Source: Spirosoma sp. SC4-14 (lineage in GTDB: Bacteria > Bacteroidota > Bacteroidia > Cytophagales > Spirosomataceae). From it: DNA of 64,000 nt. Shown in pieces: positions 41,763 through 50,334 of the stretch (its first letter is position 1; each line of letters starts with the position of its first letter). The translations under genes were made by a program, and so were the position numbers. The notes beneath the pieces are model-generated. The model made no database searches and was not told the origin of the DNA. It worked only from the letters and a program-made list of their open reading frames with translations. The stretch lies in the NCBI RefSeq assembly GCF_037201965.1, contig NZ_CP147518.1:3837001-3901000 (forward strand), in the 5' to 3' direction.

Positions 41763-42875
41763 TTAATGGGCCATATACTGTTTTGCTTCGCGGATAGTCG
41801 ACTTGTACTCAGCCGGCTTCAGTGCTTTTTTATAATGGGCCTGCGCCTGTTTGCTATCGCCCGACCGAGCCGCAATACGAGCCAGTCCGGCCTCGGCAAA
41901 GGCGTGATATTCTCTGGTATAATTAGCCACATAGGGCATGTGCAGGGCAGCCTGATAATGCCCGGCGGCTTCCCGATTGTTTTTTTCACGTTTTTCCAGC
42001 AATAGCCCTTCCAGCACCGCAATGGGCATTGGGAGCATGGGATGAGGCAGGTGTTTTAGTTGCTCTACCATTGTCTGAGCTTCTTGGTAACGACCAGCCA
42101 GCATCAGACTCTCGGCATGACGCAGTACGAATACCGGATTGTGCGGAAATCGTTCGGCCAAAATTCTGGTATAGTAAGCAGCCCGTTCTGGCTGACTTTC
42201 CTGTTCAAGGTAAATATGACTTAAATAAAAACAGGTTTCAATCCGGGTAAACACAGCCCGCCGACTGGCCATATCCATCTGTTTCAGGCCTAGTGCCATA
42301 TCCCCATCCTGAAAAAACCACATAAGCGGCTTGATGAGCGGATTGTCGAGGGGATACCGCTCGACATAATAATTGTATAAACCCGTGGTAAAGTAAAATT
42401 CAGGATTCTGCTCAATCAGCGAAAAGCCCGTTTTCATGAACCCATAGGCCTTTTTCGATTCATTTACAGCTTTCATCGTCTGCCCATCATTGTTAAAGAT
42501 CAGGGCCAGGTAGCTATGGGCCGTCAGGGCAAAAAAGGTTCCTTCGGGATCTTTTTTATTCCGTTCTAACAGCTTGCCTGCCAGAACGATACTTTGCTGA
42601 CAGGCCAGTTTAAACTGTGCAACAGCTTTGGGGTTTTCATTGATGGGCAAAAACTGCCATTTGAGTTTCATGGCCTGAAGCAGAGGAACTATAGGATGCT
42701 CAGGGTATCGCCCCCGAAGTTGTGCAATAGGCTGGTCGGCTTCCTGAAAGTTGCCCTCGTAAATCGAGTCGAGTGCTTTCAGAATTACGGGCTGAACGTT
42801 CTGATCCGACAATACCTGCGCCTGCACAACCCGTGGACTGACAATAAGGAGTAATGACAAAAAATAATATTTCAT
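41763..42875 (-). CDS. Exported tetratricopeptide-like protein
   Basis: The start at 42875 gives a signal peptide (MKYYFLSLLLIVSPRVVQAQ). The rest is a helical repeat protein (about 350 residues): AVAQFKLACQQSIVLAGKLL, AVNESKKAYGFMKTGFSLIE, PERAAYYTRILAERFPHNPV, AAGHYQAALHMPYVANYTRE. It resembles Bacteroidetes TPR proteins with periplasmic location. It is transcribed in the same direction as the DUF1549 gene, 143 bases upstream of it, and divergent from the hydrolase gene. Confidence 0.82.
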   Translation of the reverse strand: MKYYFLSLLLIVSPRVVQAQVLSDQNVQPVILKALDSIYEGNFQEADQPIAQLRGRYPEHPIVPLLQAMKLKWQFLPINENPKAVAQFKLACQQSIVLAGKLLERNKKDPEGTFFALTAHSYLALIFNNDGQTMKAVNESKKAYGFMKTGFSLIEQNPEFYFTTGLYNYYVERYPLDNPLIKPLMWFFQDGDMALGLKQMDMASRRAVFTRIETCFYLSHIYLEQESQPERAAYYTRILAERFPHNPVFVLRHAESLMLAGRYQEAQTMVEQLKHLPHPMLPMPIAVLEGLLLEKREKNNREAAGHYQAALHMPYVANYTREYHAFAEAGLARIAARSGDSKQAQAHYKKALKPAEYKSTIREAKQYMAH

Positions 42876-43123
42876 AAACGAACTCAGCATAAAAGCACTC
42901 ACCAGTTCTTGGACGAACTATCAGGCACAAGTAACCATCTGCCAGGACAGTAATTCGATTGACGAAGTAGTAGGAAGCGCGATTAGAGGCTATGTGAACG
43001 AAAATTCAGTCCGAATGTCGGCCAAACGACACAATCGAAAAGTTCGATTTCAACCCGTACGTATAATTCCTCAGTTTAGCAGCGGATTTGTTCACCATAG
43101 GCATCCGCTTAATTCTCGCATGT

Positions 43124-44026
43124 ATGAAGGAGCCCTCTCGTATAAAACGTCGGTTGATCCGTTGGGGGAGCCTGGTTTTAGCAGGCCTGTTACCCGTCAT
43201 CCTATTGAATCAGTGTACCCTCCGCATGTCCGATTCAGCCATTCAGAACTACTTCAGCAAACAAGCTATCAAACCAACGTTTCACCACATCGCCATAGCA
43301 GGACGTAGCCTGCATTATGCCCACATTGGAGCCGATACTTTACCTCCCGTGGTGTTTATCCATGGGTCGCCGGGTTCCTGGGATGCATTCATTTCGTTTT
43401 TTGCCGATTCGGGTCTTTATCAGCAGGCACAGCTACTTTCAGTAGACCGGCTCGGGTTCGGCAAATCCGGGTTGGGAAACCCCGAACCCTCTCTAGCCAG
43501 ACAGGCAGCAGCCATTGCCCCCATTCTGCAACAGGTATCAAAGATTAAGCCGCCTATTCTGGTTGGCCACTCGCTGGGTGGGCCCATTGCGGCCCGGCTG
43601 GCTATGGACTATCCGCAATGGGTGGGCGGGCTGGTTCTGGTGGCTCCCTCTATCGACCCTGCTCTGGAAAAGCAGGAATGGTATCGACCGGTTGGCGCAG
43701 CCATACCGATCCGATGGTTGCTGCCAGCCGAACTGGATGTCAGCAACCGGGAAATTCTGCCCCTCAAAGCCGAGCTGGAGGCTATGCTGCCGCTCTGGGC
43801 CAGCATTCGGGTGCCCGTGACAGTTATTCAGGGCGATGCCGATGAACTGGTGCCAGCGGGGAATGCCTGGTTTGCCCAGCGGATGCTATCCCATGCGGCT
43901 GTGAACCTACGCCTGCTACCCGGCATGAACCATTTCATTCCCTGGCGACGCCCAGACACCATTCGGGAGGCTATTCTGATGCACCTGAATGGCAGGAAAT
44001 CGTTACCAGCAAAAAAAATACCGTAG
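43124..44026 (+). CDS. Alpha/beta hydrolase, membrane-anchored
   Basis: The start at 43124 (MKEPSRIKRRLIRWGSLVLA) gives a basic n-region and one hydrophobic segment (about residues 12-28), followed by NQC, so a lipoprotein-like anchor is possible. The hydrolase fold has the oxyanion motif FIHGSPGSWDAF, the nucleophile elbow LVGHSLGGPIAARLAM (Ser), IQGDADELVPAGNAWF with the acid, and GMNHFIPW with the catalytic His. The substrate is unknown. The Rieske operon starts 79 bases downstream on the same strand. Confidence 0.87.
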   Translation: MKEPSRIKRRLIRWGSLVLAGLLPVILLNQCTLRMSDSAIQNYFSKQAIKPTFHHIAIAGRSLHYAHIGADTLPPVVFIHGSPGSWDAFISFFADSGLYQQAQLLSVDRLGFGKSGLGNPEPSLARQAAAIAPILQQVSKIKPPILVGHSLGGPIAARLAMDYPQWVGGLVLVAPSIDPALEKQEWYRPVGAAIPIRWLLPAELDVSNREILPLKAELEAMLPLWASIRVPVTVIQGDADELVPAGNAWFAQRMLSHAAVNLRLLPGMNHFIPWRRPDTIREAILMHLNGRKSLPAKKIP

Positions 44027-44104: not shown

Positions 44105-46057
44105 ATGCCCGAAACCACTGACCTGACTTGGTATAAAGTGTTGAACACTGTCGACGAACTCCCCGAAGGACGGGTAACGACTGTCACGGCAAATCACACG
44201 AGTATTTGCCTGACCCATTATAACAAAAAAATCTGCGGACTCGATAACCGGTGCCCACACCAGGGTGGTCCGCTGGGCGAAGGTTCGATCGAAAACGGCC
44301 TGCTGCGCTGCCCCTGGCATGGCTGGGATTTTGACCCACAAACGGGGCAGGCACCCGGCTTTCACGACGACGGCATTCGAACGTTTCCCATCGACATCCG
44401 CCCCGATGGCATTTATGTTGGCATCCAGCCAGAGGCTCCGCATCAGCCTACCCTATCCGACATCATGATGCAGACGCTGGTCAACTGTGGAGTCGATACT
44501 GTTTTTGGTATGGTCGGCCATTCGAATCTGGGCCTTGCCGATGCCATGCGTCGGCTGGCCGAAGCGGGCAAACTAACATTTATTGGTATTCGCCATGAGG
44601 GCGCAGCTGCATTTGCCGCATCGGCCTACGGTAAACTGACCGGGCGGCCAGCGGTTTGCTTTGGCATTGCCGGGCCGGGAGCTACAAATATGTTTACGGG
44701 TATGTGGGATGCCAAAAATGACCGCGCACCGCTGATTGCACTCAGTGGACAGGTACAAACACAGGTGGTGGGTACCGGAGCGTTTCAGGAAGTCGATCTG
44801 GTGCAGGCCTTCAGTTCGGTGGCAGCCTTCAACCAGCGGGTTATGCAGACCAGTAAACATGCCGAACTCATGGTGCTGGCCGTAAAGCACGCCCTCCTGA
44901 ACCGCGACGTGTCACACCTGACTTTCCCGGACGAAATTCAGAAACTACCCGCATCCGGCACGGCCCAGGCCAGTTCGCTCGATCACCGCATGGGCCTGCC
45001 CGCCATTACGCCCGCACCCGGTTCAATAACGGCTGCGCTAACCAGACTTCAACGGGCTAAACGACCGGTAATCATTGTAGGCCATGGAGCTAGGTTTAGT
45101 ATGGAACCAATTCTGGCTCTGGCCGAAATGCTGAATGCCCCCGTGCTTACAACCTTCAAAGGAAAAGGACTCATTCCGGATACCCACCCGTTGGCCTGTG
45201 GGGTGCTCGGCCGCAGTGGTACGCCCATTGCAAGCTGGATGATGAACGAAGCGGACCTCCTGCTGGTATTTGGTTCATCATTCGCCAATCATACCGGCAT
45301 AAGCCCGAAAATCCCGACGATTCAGGTCGATTTCGACCCAGTCGTACTGGCTAAATTTCATCCGATCGACGTACCCGTCTGGGGAGAAATTGCAACCACA
45401 GCCTCTCTATTCCGGCAAGAGCTTACCACCTGTCAGGCCATTGATCAACGCCCGGCTATTCAGCACCGATGGGACATCTGGCGGGCCGAAAAAGTAAACC
45501 GACTACGGGACGATCAAACAATGGGACTCAGCTCGATAGCCGTCTTTGAGGCACTTAGCCGCCATACGCCTGGCAATGCGGTAGTTTGTGTCGACGTAGG
45601 CAACAACGCTTACTCCCTCGGACGGTATTTCGAAACCAGTGGCCAATCGTTTCTAATGTCGGGCTACCTGGGTTCCATTGGCTTTGCTCTCCCGGCCGCT
45701 ATGGGTGCCTGGGCCGCTGTGGGTCAGCAACGGCCAGTGGTTTCGGTATCGGGCGATGGCGGTTTTGGTCAGTATATGGCCGAATTTACGACCCTGGTTC
45801 AGTATCAGATGCCGATCAAACATATTTTGCTGAATAACAACGAGCTCGGCAAAATCTCGAAAGAGCAACGCGCCGATCGACTCGATGTATGGCAGACAAG
45901 TCTGCACAATCCCAGTTTCGCCGAATTTGCAACCAATTGCGGTGCCCTTGGCATTCGGGTTAGTCAACCGAATGAACTGGAAAATGCACTCAGAGACGCA
46001 TTTGCCTATCCAGGTCCAGCCCTGGTAGAAATCATGACCAATGGCGCTCTGATTTGA
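44105..46057 (+). CDS. Rieske-[2Fe-2S] fused to PoxB/acetolactate synthase-like ThDP enzyme
   Basis: Residues 1-105 form a Rieske domain with cluster ligands Cys50, His52, Cys69 and His72 (CPHQGGPLGEG and CPWHGWDF). Residues about 117-650 are a thiamine-diphosphate enzyme: VDTVFGMVGHSNLGLADAMR, RHEGAAAFAASAYGKLTGRP with the conserved Glu165, the central nucleotide-binding domain (about 310-440), and the ThDP motif VSGDGGFGQYM (GDG 550-552) with NNNELGK (577-582). Likeness is strongest to pyruvate:quinone oxidoreductase PoxB (AFQEVDL, WDAKNDRAPLIALSGQV). Such enzymes decarboxylate 2-oxoacids and pass electrons on. The fused Rieske centre could take these electrons. First gene of a six-gene run. 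Confidence 0.88.
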   Translation: MPETTDLTWYKVLNTVDELPEGRVTTVTANHTSICLTHYNKKICGLDNRCPHQGGPLGEGSIENGLLRCPWHGWDFDPQTGQAPGFHDDGIRTFPIDIRPDGIYVGIQPEAPHQPTLSDIMMQTLVNCGVDTVFGMVGHSNLGLADAMRRLAEAGKLTFIGIRHEGAAAFAASAYGKLTGRPAVCFGIAGPGATNMFTGMWDAKNDRAPLIALSGQVQTQVVGTGAFQEVDLVQAFSSVAAFNQRVMQTSKHAELMVLAVKHALLNRDVSHLTFPDEIQKLPASGTAQASSLDHRMGLPAITPAPGSITAALTRLQRAKRPVIIVGHGARFSMEPILALAEMLNAPVLTTFKGKGLIPDTHPLACGVLGRSGTPIASWMMNEADLLLVFGSSFANHTGISPKIPTIQVDFDPVVLAKFHPIDVPVWGEIATTASLFRQELTTCQAIDQRPAIQHRWDIWRAEKVNRLRDDQTMGLSSIAVFEALSRHTPGNAVVCVDVGNNAYSLGRYFETSGQSFLMSGYLGSIGFALPAAMGAWAAVGQQRPVVSVSGDGGFGQYMAEFTTLVQYQMPIKHILLNNNELGKISKEQRADRLDVWQTSLHNPSFAEFATNCGALGIRVSQPNELENALRDAFAYPGPALVEIMTNGALI

Positions 46058-46094
46058 TCGACCAATACACCCATCCATTAACCTGAGTCCATCT

Positions 46095-47732
46095 ATGAAT
46101 TCCCTGCCCCCCGTAGTTGATTTAATATCCATAGCCCGCTTTGATGAGCTACCCAACCGCCAGCCTACCTATGCCAAAGTCAACACGATTGATTTGGTCC
46201 TTATCCGTTACGAAGAGGAGGTTTCTATCCTGTATGGTCGGTGCCTGCACCGGGGCGCCCTGCTGGCCGACGGAACGGTTGAAGGCAATAACCTTATCTG
46301 CGGGCTGCACCGCTGGGACTATCGCATCGATACCGGAATCAGCGAATATAACAACGCCGAAGCCCTCCATAAATTCACAACCTATATCCGGGACGGCCAT
46401 GTTTTGGTTGATCGGACCGAAATCCGGGCCTATGAACAAGCCCATCCGCAACCGTTCAAAAGTGAGACTTATCTGGGCGACTTTTCCGACACTCACCCCG
46501 AATCGACGGAGCCTTACACGACATACATCAAGCACCTCGCTCAACACGGCCTGACGCTCTACGGTCATCATGGGGCCGTAGCAGCCATGGGCGTCGATCG
46601 GAATACGCTACCGAAGTGGGAAGACATTCAGCTATTGCCCGCACAGCTTTCCCGAAAGCCCCTGCTCGACCACGAGCCCATTGATACGCAAGTTCGTATA
46701 GGCCCACGCTCTCAAAAGCCGCTCTTGCTGGCAATGCCCCTTTTTGTGTCGGATATGTCATTTGGATCGCTATCCCGCGAAGCCAAACTAGCGCTGGCCA
46801 AAGGAGCTGAACTGGCCCGTACGGGCATTTGCTCGGGTGAAGGCGGTATGCTCCCAGCCGAACAGGAAGCCAACAGCCGGTATTTTTACGAACTGGCGTC
46901 GGCCCGGTTTGGCTTTAGCTGGGATAAAGTAAAAAAAGCTCAGGCGTTTCATTTCAAAGGAGGACAAGGTGCGAAAACAGGCACCGGTGGGCACCTCCCC
47001 GGCCATAAAGTATCGGCCGAAATTGCCCAGGTACGGGGGCTGCAACCAGGCGAAGCAGCCATTAGTCCGGCAACGTTTGCCGATCTGCATACACCAGCCG
47101 ATTTCCGCCAGCTGGCAGACCAGGTCCGGGCCGAAACGGGAGGCATTCCAATTGGCTTTAAGATAGCCGCCAGTCATATTGAAGCCGATATCGACTTTGC
47201 GCTGGAAGCATCTGCCGATTATATCATTCTCGATGGGCGCGGTGGCGGCACTGGGGCGGCTCCCATTATCCTTCGAAATCATATCAATGTACCAACCATT
47301 CCGGCATTGGCCCGAGCCCGTCGCCATCTGAACCGCCTTGGCGTTCGTGATGTAACCCTCGTCATTACGGGCGGGTTACGGGTACCCTCCGATTTTGTTA
47401 AAGCACTGGCCCTGGGTGCCGACGCGATTGCCGTATCTAATTCAGCGCTTCAGGCTATCGGTTGCCTGGGTATGCGCGCCTGCGAATCCAATAACTGCCC
47501 GGTTGGAATTGCTACTCAGAAAGAAAACCTGCGCGCCCGACTCCTGGTTGACCAATCGGCCCAACAATTGAAAAATTTCCTGGAAGCGGCTACTGACTTG
47601 ATGACCGTAGTGGCCCGCGCCTGTGGCCACCGTCGACTAAGCGATTTCAACCCGTACGATCTCGCTACGTTTCACTATGAAATGCACCGGCTAACGGGTA
47701 TAGCTTACGCCGGTGTTGAAAACAATGGCTGA
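46095..47732 (+). CDS. Rieske-[2Fe-2S] fused to glutamate synthase-type FMN/[3Fe-4S] domain
   Basis: Residues 1-105 are a Rieske-like domain with Cys50, His52, Cys69 and His72 (CLHRGALL and CGLHRWDY), the same positions as in the preceding gene. Residues about 140-545 are a GltS FMN-binding domain: LAMPLFVSDMSFGSLSREAK, GICSGEGGMLPAEQEANSRY, QGAKTGTGGHLPGHKV, YIILDGRGGGTGAAPIILRN and the [3Fe-4S] motif C-x5-C-x4-C (Cys457, 463, 468) in CLGMRACESNNCPVGIATQ. No glutaminase domain is present. Similar stand-alone domains occur in N-methylglutamate synthase and other amino-group redox enzymes. It follows the first gene after 37 bases. Confidence 0.9.
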   Translation: MNSLPPVVDLISIARFDELPNRQPTYAKVNTIDLVLIRYEEEVSILYGRCLHRGALLADGTVEGNNLICGLHRWDYRIDTGISEYNNAEALHKFTTYIRDGHVLVDRTEIRAYEQAHPQPFKSETYLGDFSDTHPESTEPYTTYIKHLAQHGLTLYGHHGAVAAMGVDRNTLPKWEDIQLLPAQLSRKPLLDHEPIDTQVRIGPRSQKPLLLAMPLFVSDMSFGSLSREAKLALAKGAELARTGICSGEGGMLPAEQEANSRYFYELASARFGFSWDKVKKAQAFHFKGGQGAKTGTGGHLPGHKVSAEIAQVRGLQPGEAAISPATFADLHTPADFRQLADQVRAETGGIPIGFKIAASHIEADIDFALEASADYIILDGRGGGTGAAPIILRNHINVPTIPALARARRHLNRLGVRDVTLVITGGLRVPSDFVKALALGADAIAVSNSALQAIGCLGMRACESNNCPVGIATQKENLRARLLVDQSAQQLKNFLEAATDLMTVVARACGHRRLSDFNPYDLATFHYEMHRLTGIAYAGVENNG

Positions 47733-47873
47733 ATCAGCGACTGAGTGAATAACATTCTGATTTACACCGATTCATACCATGATTACCTAAGCCAACACGC
47801 CGAATCTATTTAGTCCAACCGAGGAAATAAACCACAATGAATCAGTTACTGGTTCACTCATTTCATACTGTCT

Positions 47874-48080
47874 ATGGAGCTATTTGTTCAATTTATCCTG
47901 CTGCTAATTGGGCTCTACCTGACCATTGGTCTGGTTATGTCCGTTTTTCTGCTTCGTCGGGGCATCGCCACCTACGATGAGGGTATTCGTCATACTTCCC
48001 TGCCATTCAAGCTGTTGATCTGGCCCGGTGTTGTCGCCCTGTGGCTTCCTTTATTCATCAAATGGCGGAAAGCATCATGA
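47874..48080 (+). CDS. Small membrane protein, unknown function
   Basis: The 68 residues have two membrane segments (about 4-26, FVQFILLLIGLYLTIGLVMS, and 47-61, LPFKLLIWPGVVALWLPLF) joined by a short loop with basic and acidic residues (RRGIATYDEGIRHTS). No family is recognised. The TGA stop overlaps the next ATG in the form ATGA, so it is coupled to the following gene. It probably assists the membrane cytochrome encoded downstream. Confidence 0.75.
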   Translation: MELFVQFILLLIGLYLTIGLVMSVFLLRRGIATYDEGIRHTSLPFKLLIWPGVVALWLPLFIKWRKAS

Positions 48081-48499
48081 TCACCTCCCTGCGTCGCCGA
48101 CACTATTATACCTGGCTGGGGCTGGCTATTAGCTTACCGCTGGTAGTAGGCTGGGCCTGGTTGTCTATCCCCACGACTCCTGCCAGTTCTATTCCCCAAT
48201 CACTCCCAATGGCTTACCCAATACCCATCAGTAGCCGTCAGACCGACGATTTGCTGGTTACCCTCCGCAAGCAATCCGATGGACGTAAACAATTGGAGAT
48301 AGTGGTCCTGAAGCCACTGGTGGGCGCTGCCAATGAGTTGTTTATCGCCAGGCCTCACCGGATACTGCTTGGAAAACTTGATGGGCGTGGCTTGTATCGG
48401 TTTACCCTTCCAGATTCGCTGGCGACTCCCTCTGGCTTAACGCTACAGGTGTACGATAGCATCAAACAACAGGAACGAGAAACACTAACGCTACCCTAA
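48077..48499 (+). CDS. Membrane-anchored periplasmic protein of the Rieske operon
   Basis: With the start at 48077 the protein has 140 residues: a basic N-terminus, one membrane segment (about 12-30, WLGLAISLPLVVGWAWL) and a soluble part of about 105 residues (LLVTLRKQSDGRKQLEIVVL, HRILLGKLDGRGLYRFTLPD) that looks beta-rich. No family or Cys ligands are recognised. ATGA coupling with the upstream gene and a direct stop-to-start join with the downstream gene (TAA at 48497-48499, ATG at 48500) show tight coexpression. Confidence 0.75.
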   Translation: MITSLRRRHYYTWLGLAISLPLVVGWAWLSIPTTPASSIPQSLPMAYPIPISSRQTDDLLVTLRKQSDGRKQLEIVVLKPLVGAANELFIARPHRILLGKLDGRGLYRFTLPDSLATPSGLTLQVYDSIKQQERETLTLP

Positions 48500-49531
48500 A
48501 TGAGTGTCAATTACGCAGGTATTCTCTGGAATCGCCAGAAAAAACGCTACGATACGGTTATCGCCATCGGCATACTTTCGTATCTGGCACTGTTTATAGG
48601 ACTACATGCCTGGCTGCATCCCAACATTACGACCGAAACATTGATTATTCGGGCTACGGGTACCCTGGCCTTTCTGATGCTGCATATTATTCTAAGCATT
48701 GGCCCACTGGCCCGTTTGAATCCCGTCTTTCTACCCCTGCTTTATAATCGTCGCCATCTGGGCGTCAGTCTGTTTATCATTGCCAGCGTACACGGCCTGT
48801 TCAACATCCTTCAGTTTCACGCAGGCGGCAACGCCAACCCGCTTGTGTCTGTATTGACGGCAGGAAGTCGGTTTCCGGGCCCGATTTATTTCCCCTTCCA
48901 GCCCCTTGGATTGCTTGCACTGGTCATTTTCTTTTTTATGGCCGCCACCAGCCACGATTTCTGGCTGAAAAACCTAACCCCCAGGATATGGAAATCAGTG
49001 CATATGCTTATCTACATGGCTTATGCGCTCATTGTTCTCCATGTGGTACTAGGGGTTATTCAACTGGAAAAAAGCCCTGTTTTAATTGGTTTTATGGGGC
49101 TTGGGATGTTGCTGATCATCGGTCTGCATCTGGCTGCTGGCTGGCAAGCGTGGCGAACCGATTATAAACCAATCACGATTGATACGACCGGCTGGATACG
49201 CGTGGGGCCACTGCAGGAAATTCGGAATAACCGGGCAAAAATTGTTCAGGCTGGCGATGAAACCATTGCCATATTCCGCTATGATGGTAAACTATCGGCC
49301 GTATCGAATGTGTGCCGCCACCAGAATGGGCCACTGGGCGAGGGTAAAATTATTGATGGCTGTATCACCTGTCCCTGGCACGGTTATCAATACCGCCCCG
49401 AAGATGGATGCTCGCCCCCGCCATTCCCCGAAAAAGTGGAAACCTATGAACTGGCTTTATCGGGCAGCGACGTCTGGGTAAATCCAGCACCGCTACCCGA
49501 AGGTACTTATGTTGAACCCATCCGCTACTAA
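48500..49531 (+). CDS. Ferric reductase-like membrane cytochrome b fused to a Rieske domain
   Basis: The 343 residues have about six membrane segments (about residues 20-38, 48-68, 85-105, 130-150, 170-192, 197-215) of the ferric reductase/YedZ type, with His in the helices (GLHAWLH, LHIILS, SVHGLFNILQFH, HMLIYMAYALIVLHVV) as likely haem ligands. The C-terminal Rieske domain has Cys272, His274, Cys291 and His294 (CRHQNGPLGEG and CPWHGYQY). The Rieske domain probably faces the same side as the last membrane segment's C-end. Electrons could pass between quinone, haem and [2Fe-2S]. Confidence 0.88.
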   Translation: MSVNYAGILWNRQKKRYDTVIAIGILSYLALFIGLHAWLHPNITTETLIIRATGTLAFLMLHIILSIGPLARLNPVFLPLLYNRRHLGVSLFIIASVHGLFNILQFHAGGNANPLVSVLTAGSRFPGPIYFPFQPLGLLALVIFFFMAATSHDFWLKNLTPRIWKSVHMLIYMAYALIVLHVVLGVIQLEKSPVLIGFMGLGMLLIIGLHLAAGWQAWRTDYKPITIDTTGWIRVGPLQEIRNNRAKIVQAGDETIAIFRYDGKLSAVSNVCRHQNGPLGEGKIIDGCITCPWHGYQYRPEDGCSPPPFPEKVETYELALSGSDVWVNPAPLPEGTYVEPIRY

Positions 49532-49536
49532 ATCCA

Positions 49537-50334
49537 ATGTCAAACGATGAATTTTATATAGGCTACCAGCCCAATGCCCCGGCTGGTATTGCCCGTTCGA
49601 TGCGGTTGATCGTCGGTATTCTCCTGACTGATCTGCTCCTTATTGCGTTTGCCCTTACTCGCTTTGAACAGGGATTTTCTACGAGTCAGTTCGAGTATGG
49701 TACGCTTACCGAAGTGGAAGGCCAGTTATTGCGTTCACCGGTACCTACCCTACGGGTATTGCTCGGCAAAGACGCCAATGGTCAAAACGTGTATAAATCG
49801 ATCCTGCTTGTCAATTTCCTTAAATTTGGGGCCGAATCACTACTCCAGGCGTATACGCAAAAAGGAGTATCGGAATCAGAAAGTCTAGTCCGCCTGAGCG
49901 GTACGCTACTCTATTACGATGGCCTGACGGTTCTGGAACTTACCGATCAGGAGCAGTCCCTGCTGTCGATAAAAAAAACAGCATCACCCCTACCGCCTTT
50001 ACAAAAAACTATCCTCGGAACGGTTAAACTAACGGGTGAAATTGTTGATCCTAAATGCTATTTTGGAGCCATGAAACCGGGCGAAAGTAAACCCCACCGC
50101 GACTGTGCCATCCGGTGCATTTCTGGAGGTATACCGCCTGTCTTTGTCCTAAAAAACCAGGAGGGGGTAGCTACTTATCTTTTTTTAACGGATCAACAGG
50201 GACATGCCATCAACGATCGTATCCTGAAATTCGTTGCCGTTCCGATTCAGGTGAGTGGTACACTTCAACGCATAAATGAGTGGATGGTTCTGCAAATTGA
50301 CCCGGCAACGATTCGGCTAGCCAGCGATCAGTAA
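49537..50334 (+). CDS. Membrane-anchored protein with Cys/His block, last gene of the Rieske operon
   Basis: The 265 residues have one N-terminal membrane segment (about 20-42, SMRLIVGILLTDLLLIAFAL). A predicted external part follows, with a compact motif at about residues 170-200: EIVDPKCYFGAMKPGESKPH and then DCAIRCISGGIPPVF. The three Cys and one His suggest a metal or cofactor site. I have no name for it. It begins five bases after the cytochrome gene, so it belongs to the same unit. The stop lies in the loop of a 13-bp hairpin. Confidence 0.75.
   Translation: MSNDEFYIGYQPNAPAGIARSMRLIVGILLTDLLLIAFALTRFEQGFSTSQFEYGTLTEVEGQLLRSPVPTLRVLLGKDANGQNVYKSILLVNFLKFGAESLLQAYTQKGVSESESLVRLSGTLLYYDGLTVLELTDQEQSLLSIKKTASPLPPLQKTILGTVKLTGEIVDPKCYFGAMKPGESKPHRDCAIRCISGGIPPVFVLKNQEGVATYLFLTDQQGHAINDRILKFVAVPIQVSGTLQRINEWMVLQIDPATIRLASDQ

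Follow-up and report, generated by a model that had tools for sequence, protein, structure and literature searches.

Why should Rieske [2Fe-2S] domains, known from respiratory complexes and oxygenase systems, recur in three proteins of otherwise different domain content that are encoded in a single bacterial gene cluster? The question is raised by six genes of Spirosoma sp. SC4-14, denoted G1 to G6, which lie within the window analyzed here, a stretch of 64,000 nucleotides that is part of a single contig (NZ_CP147518.1) in an 8.1-Mb genome. The cluster is real, conserved, in parts cross-phylum, and modular. We give somewhat less than an even chance to the possibility that these genes encode a transmembrane electron-transfer set wired by Rieske domains, in which soluble Rieske-fused enzymes would feed the membrane cytochrome G5, and G5 would export the electrons to G6, in a manner similar to MsrPQ.

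Three Rieske fusions and the genes beside them

All six open reading frames were found on one strand at the positions given in an earlier sequence-only reading of this DNA, which had also described the last four genes as joined by overlaps or by gaps of at most five bases; indeed, G3 and G4 overlap, G4 and G5 abut, and G5 and G6 are separated by 5 bp, with 37 bp between G1 and G2 and 141 bp between G2 and G3 (Table 1). Pfam confirms the three Rieske domains (E-values of 1.8e-15 in G1, 7.3e-12 in G2 and 7.5e-18 in G5) that the same reading had placed in fusion with a thiamine diphosphate (ThDP) enzyme, a GltS-type domain and a ferric-reductase-like domain, the respective matches being TPP_enzyme N, M and C, Glu_synthase (2.4e-88) and Ferric_reduct (8.7e-11). 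At E-values up to 0.1, Pfam yields no match for G3 or G6 and, for G4, a single domain of unknown function (DUF) under its cut-off. The whole genome contains twelve Rieske matches, three of which fall within approximately 5.3 kb at this locus. Between positions 42800 and 50600, terminator-like sites (7, against 8.3 in shuffled sequences) and promoter-like sites (7 against 6.9) are no commoner than expected, so the operon is indicated by gene spacing only.

Respiratory (bc1/b6f) Rieske proteins contain two extra cysteines near the cluster that form a disulfide; these are missing in the cluster motifs of G1 (C-P-H-Q/C-P-W-H), G2 (C-L-H-R/C-G-L-H) and G5 (C-R-H-Q/C-P-W-H). In a phylogenetic tree constructed from a short alignment of 14, 11 and 11 Rieske domains of the three types along with 5 other Rieske proteins of the same genome, the G1, G2 and G5 domains each form a clade of their own (support 0.93, 1.00 and 0.93), without resolution of the order among the three; archaea and actinobacteria are represented in the clade of G1, and Rhizobium in that of G5. 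Because the clades are separate, a recent duplication of one Rieske domain inside the stretch is ruled out.

Residue conservation was counted in alignment rows that reached at least 85% of the length of the reference protein, a filter by which G2 lost one of the 48 rows that come from the named loci described below. The putative cluster ligands of G1 (C50, H52, C69 and H72) are kept in 80 of 81 rows, the remaining row being gapped there, and the catalytic glutamate E165 and the FQ motif (F227, Q228) of this three-domain ThDP enzyme (Pfam N, M and C) in all 81. The best match of G1 in PDB is PoxB (E 1.6e-87). Its scores are below the curated cut-offs for pyruvate oxidase and PoxB (386 bits against 742 for PRK08611, 302 against 792 for PRK09124). 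Aligned to the PoxB structure 3eya, the central domain of G1 shows no large gaps, with only partial likeness at the residues that we take to contact flavin adenine dinucleotide (FAD), and G1 has no counterpart of the PoxB residues after 527 of 572. Neither G1 nor G2 contains a hydrophobic segment by hydropathy.

G2 keeps all four Rieske ligands in 78 of 79 rows, whereas three are lost in the exception, L072; the C-x5-C-x4-C cluster motif (C457, C463, C468) and the residues Q291 and K294 of the GltS QGAK motif are present in all 79, and no glutaminase domain was detected in G2 with Pfam. L072 (5108-6739, minus strand) is a second Rieske-GltS copy in its genome (G182), in which the Pfam Rieske match is gone and the flavin mononucleotide (FMN)/[3Fe-4S] domain is kept. 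A tree of GltS domains (32 Rieske-GltS, 6 rubredoxin-GltS and 9 archaeal-type GltS/GltB sequences; FastTree, midpoint root) shows Rieske-GltS (0.872) and rubredoxin-GltS (0.907) as sister clades, with a support of 0.999 for the joint clade, apart from the 9 GltS/GltB. The rubredoxin-GltS genes adjoin one neighbor cluster in 5 of 6 loci, and both members of it that were checked are Pfam rubrerythrins; three of the rubredoxin-GltS fusions (L073-L078) seem to carry two rubredoxin domains (one of the three was checked). The same architecture is found in CD0828 of Clostridioides difficile, which is not itself in the tree, its clade being represented by L073-L078; PMC11980386 reports that the purified protein is reduced by NADH (reduced nicotinamide adenine dinucleotide) and that its loss lowers survival of H2O2. 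Given the kinship with rubredoxin-GltS and the capacity of CD0828 to take electrons from NADH (PMC11980386), G2 would appear to be a reductase that feeds its own iron domain rather than an amino-acid enzyme. The earlier suggestion that G2 acts on amino compounds is thus not compelled by its closest compared relatives, and amino-acid synthesis by G2 is weakened as a candidate function by the grouping in the GltS tree.

In G5, R84, R85, H86, H98, H168, H181 and the Rieske ligands are invariant in 27 of 27 rows, and H107 is replaced by serine in one. Hydropathy delineates six hydrophobic regions (overlapping windows merged), and lysine and arginine are richer in the N-terminal and even-numbered loops, so that, by hydropathy, both ends of the protein, and hence the Rieske tail, are predicted to be cytoplasmic. 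In proteins of the YedZ type, as described in PMC3591440, an arginine in transmembrane segment 3 (TM3) replaces the first histidine, leaving one histidine in TM3 and two in TM5. The R84-x13-H98 and H168-x12-H181 spacings of G5 fit the YedZ/STEAP pattern of that source, which makes a single outer heme likely; a two-heme, NOX-type G5 with H86 and H98 as the TM3 pair was dropped because the spacing fits R84/H98, although H86, outside the YedZ heme pattern, is invariant as well. G5 also has a weak NCBIfam match to MsrQ (5.7e-8). No MsrP molybdenum enzyme was found among the six genes with Pfam, and the constant partner of G5 is G6, which accompanies it in all 10 genomes and all 26 named loci that hold G5. 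Periplasmic methionine sulfoxide repair was considered on account of MsrA and MsrB next to the cytochrome genes in L223 but was abandoned, as only 2 of the searched loci had MsrA and 3 had MsrB.

G6 carries the block C174-x12-H187-x2-C190-x3-C194, invariant in 27 of 27 rows. A structure model (27 sequences; predicted local distance difference test, pLDDT, 86) consists of a membrane helix and two beta-rich domains, with a fold that reads as similar to the oligonucleotide/oligosaccharide-binding (OB) type and with the four residues of the block in or beside two short helices of the second domain. There is one hydrophobic segment, and the charge distribution leaves the orientation of the reference G6 unsettled; given that its homologs have Lys/Arg clusters directly before the helix and that short relatives with only the Cys/His domain start with signal-like segments, this domain probably faces the outside. 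G3 homologs precede G5 in L041-L044, L046, L111, L115 and one Rhizobium plasmid; in many named loci, G3 (and some G4) are labelled by position and look only. G4 has a second, borderline hydrophobic stretch at 85-103. In L041-L044 and L046 there is no G4, and G3 and G5 are only about 80 bp apart.

Table 1. Genes of the cluster and the gene upstream of it (positions in the window)
Gene	Position	Strand	Size	Predicted features
G0	43088..44026 (start 43088 or 43124)	+		Alpha/beta hydrolase with N-terminal hydrophobic segment; Pfam Abhydrolase_1 8.8e-23
G1	44105..46057	+	650 aa	N-terminal Rieske [2Fe-2S] and PoxB/pyruvate-oxidase/ALS-type ThDP enzyme
G2	46095..47732	+	545 aa	N-terminal Rieske and glutamate-synthase-type FMN/[3Fe-4S] domain
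G3	47874..48080	+	68 aa	Two hydrophobic regions
G4	48041..48499	+	152 aa from GTG (ATG at 48062, 48077)	N-terminal hydrophobic segment and putative periplasmic domain
G5	48500..49531	+	343 aa	Ferric-reductase-like (MsrQ/YedZ-like) cytochrome, six predicted helices, C-terminal Rieske
G6	49537..50334	+	265 aa	One predicted membrane helix, then two domains modeled as OB-like

Recurrence of the genes in genomes and plasmids

Among 296 genomes of the phylum Bacteroidota, we detected G1 (E<=1e-110) in 8, G5 (E<=1e-25) in 10 and full-length Rieske-GltS, counted by hand with one partial row (G032) left out, in 37; full-length G6 occurs in the same 10 genomes as G5, and 3 more carry the Cys/His domain only. 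Seven of the 8 genomes with G1 have G2. G5 is present in 5 of 8 genomes with G1 against 5 of 288 others (p=7e-7), and G2 in 9 of 10 genomes with G5 against 28 of 286 (p=3e-8), both by one-sided Fisher tests that ignore phylogeny. In the family of Spirosoma sp. SC4-14, 5 of 150 genomes, its own among them, were found to hold G5, as were 2 of the 17 genomes listed for its genus. The gene order that the sequence-only reading proposed to seek in other genomes is indeed conserved, and both the Rieske-ThDP and the Rieske-GltS fusions proved to be real and widespread. Thus, L041 has the order G2-G3-G5-G6-G7-G1 (G7 being a DUF5996-like protein), L042, L043, L044 and L046 have G2-G3-G5-G6-G7, and L111 has G3-G4like-G5-G6-G1. 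This conserved order, together with the co-occurrence, rules out chance co-location of the three Rieske genes.

A scan with the G1 alignment retrieved 565 relatives, and the best 80 of these define the named loci, many of which are cut by contig ends; by title, L128 and L199 are from Acidobacteriota, L137 is from Chlorobiota, L170 from Shewanella hanedai and L171 from Xenococcus, and all the others belong to Bacteroidota. The neighbor clusters in the 80 loci include G2 (48 loci), G7 (44), an Na+/H+ antiporter (36), G5 and G6 (26 each), G4 (19, in the company of G5), a Crp-type regulator (19) and an FMN_red flavodoxin (9), the identities of G7, antiporter, regulator and flavodoxin having been checked with Pfam on one member each. 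G1, G2, G5 and G6 come together in 21 loci, and the complete series G2-G1-G3-G4-G5-G6 is consecutive in L184, L186, L189 and L152. G5 is found in 21 of 48 loci with G2 against 5 of 32 without it (p=0.014). From the distribution across named loci, genomes and plasmids, it follows that two modules recur: module A, that is, G1 with G2 or the flavodoxin, often along with G7 and the antiporter, and module B, that is, G3-G4-G5-G6. The flavodoxin occupies the place of G2 in an otherwise similar order (e.g. L185 compared to L162), as if it substituted for G2, since the two are never found in one locus (G2 in 0 of 9 flavodoxin loci, compared to 48 of the 71 others, p=1.2e-4). In the genome of Spirosoma sp. 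SC4-14, a search for flavodoxin gave one match that was not significant, and neither G7 (sought without a positive control) nor PF19459 was found.

In a tblastn search of plasmids, G5 was found on 5 Rhizobium plasmids (45-51% identity), with the BLAST-derived order SDR-G3-(53-aa protein in the G4 place)-G5-G6 on one and a similarly annotated second. G1 is encoded on 4 plasmids of haloarchaea and on one of Mycobacteroides abscessus (53-60% identity over at least 99%). On the latter, G1 has a flavodoxin less than 3 kb away that shares 55% identity with the Bacteroidota flavodoxin, and it and an annotated cation:H+ antiporter are located less than 5 kb from G1 on the opposite strand.

Five genomes with G5-G6 (G439, G312, G337, G349 and G219) were picked on the ground that their G5 had appeared without G1 or G2. 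ThDP enzyme matches in the first four begin at residue 107 or later, with 30-33% identity, and there are none in G219. All five have further Rieske proteins; in three genomes, one of these is 118-119 aa in size and might be a free Rieske ferredoxin. That module B occurs here with neither G1 nor G2 but with extra Rieske proteins suggests that G5 may accept electrons from several sources, with G1 and G2 as optional donors.

The surroundings of the modules offer several further observations. The gene G0 lies 78 bp upstream of G1 on the same strand and may be a seventh member of the cluster; homologs (E<=1e-8) were found in three other searched loci, L222 (62% identity), L221 (71%, partial, at the locus end) and L144 (43%), all of which hold G5, and in L221 and L222 they are not within one operon with it. 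G7 (L122, 13581-14402), with a W-P-H-H-F-D-like motif, is located beside or near G1 or G2, and its model (pLDDT 92) gave no fold match with E<=0.001. A protein with the Pycsar effector domain PycTM is encoded near G1 and the antiporter in L140 (13875-14540) and 7 other loci (one member checked with Pfam), and an EgtD-like histidine-specific methyltransferase (c28, one checked) near G1, G2 or G7 in 6 of 80 loci, L127 and L147 among them, a hint at thiol-histidine metabolism. The antiporter is present in 15 of the 26 G1 loci that hold G5, and its proposed role in ion compensation was dropped, there being no particular link to module B. Adjacent to G5-G6, an MGH1/GH63-type glucosidase and a glycogen-debranching-type enzyme are encoded in the four module B-alone genomes from the family of Spirosoma sp. 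SC4-14, with an aquaporin nearby as well (L221-L224), and a GH63/MGH1-like glucosidase also on the Rhizobium plasmid L214. In one or more of L112, L113 and L115, G5-G6 adjoin an N-acyltransferase (Acetyltransf_5) and an alpha/beta hydrolase-VTT fusion, both tested in L113, as well as another acyltransferase-like gene and a gene that looks DinB-like by eye.

Possible routes of the electrons

If the two modules exchange electrons, the following scheme can be envisaged. In the cytoplasm, G1 would oxidatively decarboxylate a 2-oxo acid, by default presumed to be pyruvate, and deliver the electrons to its own Rieske center, while G2 would draw electrons from a soluble donor, NAD(P)H or another, and pass them through FMN and [3Fe-4S] to its Rieske center. 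Provided that the conserved ligands bind the expected cofactors, these centers could dock with the cytoplasmic Rieske tail of G5, from which electrons would pass to heme b and, on the periplasmic side, to G6, where the Cys3His block in the OB-like domain is the likely acceptor site; G3 and G4 would be small anchoring subunits. Compared to MsrPQ, the Rieske domains would stand in for the flavin reductase and G6 for MsrP, with G1 and G2 as optional donors to G5, and the set could be proposed to act in redox or general stress responses. A bolder version appears rather doubtful to us, namely, that the Rieske domains are interchangeable plugs, through which unrelated cytoplasmic enzymes, one a ThDP oxidase of 2-oxo acids and the other an FMN/[3Fe-4S] reductase, discharge into one Rieske-tailed cytochrome that exports to a novel type of periplasmic Cys3His OB-fold protein.

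We similarly consider it rather unlikely that the modules are two independent stress devices, a soluble redox module A and a membrane reductase module B, that adjoin and perhaps share regulation without exchanging electrons. This would agree with the five picked genomes, where module B is accompanied by neither G1 nor G2, with the lack of G5 in 54 of 80 G1 loci (a count limited by contig ends), and with the disparate neighborhoods, an Na+/H+ antiporter, an ion channel and a Crp-type regulator for module A, and the glucosidase, debranching-type enzyme and aquaporin for module B. Under independence, however, G1 and G2 would hardly be expected to adjoin module B directly in several lineages and to co-occur with it at the genome level, and the presence of a Rieske domain in all three proteins without a common partner would be an unlikely coincidence. 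The proposal of the sequence-only reading that the membrane Rieske cytochrome is the common partner is accordingly plausible, whereas its idea of one system holds only in part: linkage is conserved but not obligate, and, since the reading had itself named scattering of the genes as evidence to the contrary, the separate occurrence of the modules counts partly against it.

The electrons could also be exchanged with the quinone pool, in line with the sequence-only reading, such that G1 is a Rieske-coupled pyruvate:menaquinone oxidoreductase, G5 a quinone reductase and G6 structural; PoxB as the best match of G1, and the interaction of ferric-reductase-like cytochromes such as MsrQ with quinone, fit this improbable version, but G6 is constant with G5 and carries an invariant Cys3His block, and the outer-side partner is better indicated than quinone exchange. 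Least probable by far is a reverse flow, from an outside reductant via G6 and G5 to Rieske domains that supply cytoplasmic reactions of reductive carboxylation or amination. In principle, carriers of this sort can run both ways, and Q291 and K294 of the QGAK motif are universal in G2, but non-respiratory Rieske centers and heme b are too positive for driving pyruvate synthesis. Moreover, a rubredoxin-GltS relative is reduced by NADH, according to PMC11980386.

Returning to the transfer of electrons from Rieske-fused enzymes through G5 to G6, a series of observations weighs against it. Opposite PoxB Phe465, which we take to assist electron transfer from ThDP to FAD, G1 has Lys583 in 81 of 81 rows (numbering counted on the alignment), so that it may not be a pyruvate oxidase. 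The MsrQ score of G5 is far below the cut-off (32.5 bits against 130), and the best Foldseek matches of the G6 model are OB-fold single-stranded DNA-binding proteins (best E 5.7e-4, low TM). With respect to linkage, 28 of the 37 genomes with Rieske-GltS are without G5; G5 is absent from 3 of the 8 genomes with G1, which speaks against one obligate system; all 5 picked genomes lack a Rieske-GltS at E<=1e-60; and, in two haloarchaeal plasmid records, no annotation resembling G5 or G6 appears less than 7 kb from G1. The antiporter of M. abscessus shows no BLAST similarity to the tested Bacteroidota antiporters, so that the evidence for module A in more than one phylum does not extend to this component. 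The mutual exclusion of the flavodoxin and G2 may in part reflect phylogeny or cut contigs. Finally, electron transfer from CD0828 to Rbr and Sor is only slow, and its role is left open by the authors (PMC11980386).

Relation to known systems

Searches of the open-licence PMC literature listed no paper on the six-gene set that could be recognized from its title, the opening of its abstract or counts. This agrees with the sequence-only reading, which knew of no described system with this set, but does not extend to all the parts: the fusion of a ferric reductase domain (FRD) with Rieske is not new as such because PMC3591440 already lists it as model M4 in a figure legend. In the cluster described here, Rieske domains seem to be fused connectors on unrelated enzymes. 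Should electrons indeed flow through G5 to G6, those of 2-oxo acids and NAD(P)H would have a path into the periplasm, and there would be a context for two orphan observations in the literature, the FRD-Rieske proteins and the GltS-type domains fused to small iron proteins; G6 would represent a family of periplasmic redox proteins, constant with the cytochrome in this analysis and open to direct testing. If, in addition, the Rieske domains act as plugs, this would be modular electron export from central carbon metabolism, spread horizontally among bacteria, with the ThDP part also in archaea.

Perhaps the most relevant precedent is MsrPQ (YedYZ), in which a ferric-reductase-like b-type cytochrome conveys electrons out of the cytoplasm to a dedicated periplasmic partner, as proposed here for G5, and with which G5 shares the Arg/His pattern. 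Unlike that system, G5 carries a C-terminal Rieske domain and scores far below the MsrQ cut-off, Rieske-fused enzymes are encoded in the G1-G6 cluster, and the partner is the OB-like Cys3His protein G6 instead of the molybdenum enzyme MsrP. The FRD-Rieske proteins (model M4 of Zhang et al. 2013) combine the same ferric reductase and electron-transfer domains as G5; in the parts of PMC3591440 consulted, they are presented as a figure-legend architecture with one sentence, where no gene set, G6 or Rieske-fused donors appear. G1 resembles PoxB and other pyruvate oxidases in its full ThDP enzyme domain, with the catalytic Glu, FQ motif and active-site Glu kept, and differs in the N-terminal Rieske domain, the Lys in place of Phe465 and the missing counterpart of the PoxB C-terminal end. 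G2 shares with glutamate synthase (GltB, archaeal-type GltS) the FMN/[3Fe-4S] synthase domain and the C-x5-C-x4-C motif but lacks the glutaminase domain, has an added Rieske domain and groups with rubredoxin-GltS, apart from the nine sampled GltS/GltB. Closer to G2 are the rubredoxin-GltS proteins (L074-L078 and, according to PMC11980386, CD0828), which similarly consist of a stand-alone GltS-type FMN/[3Fe-4S] domain and an N-terminal one-electron iron domain, with rubredoxin where G2 has Rieske and peroxide-defence neighbors where G2 has a membrane cytochrome.

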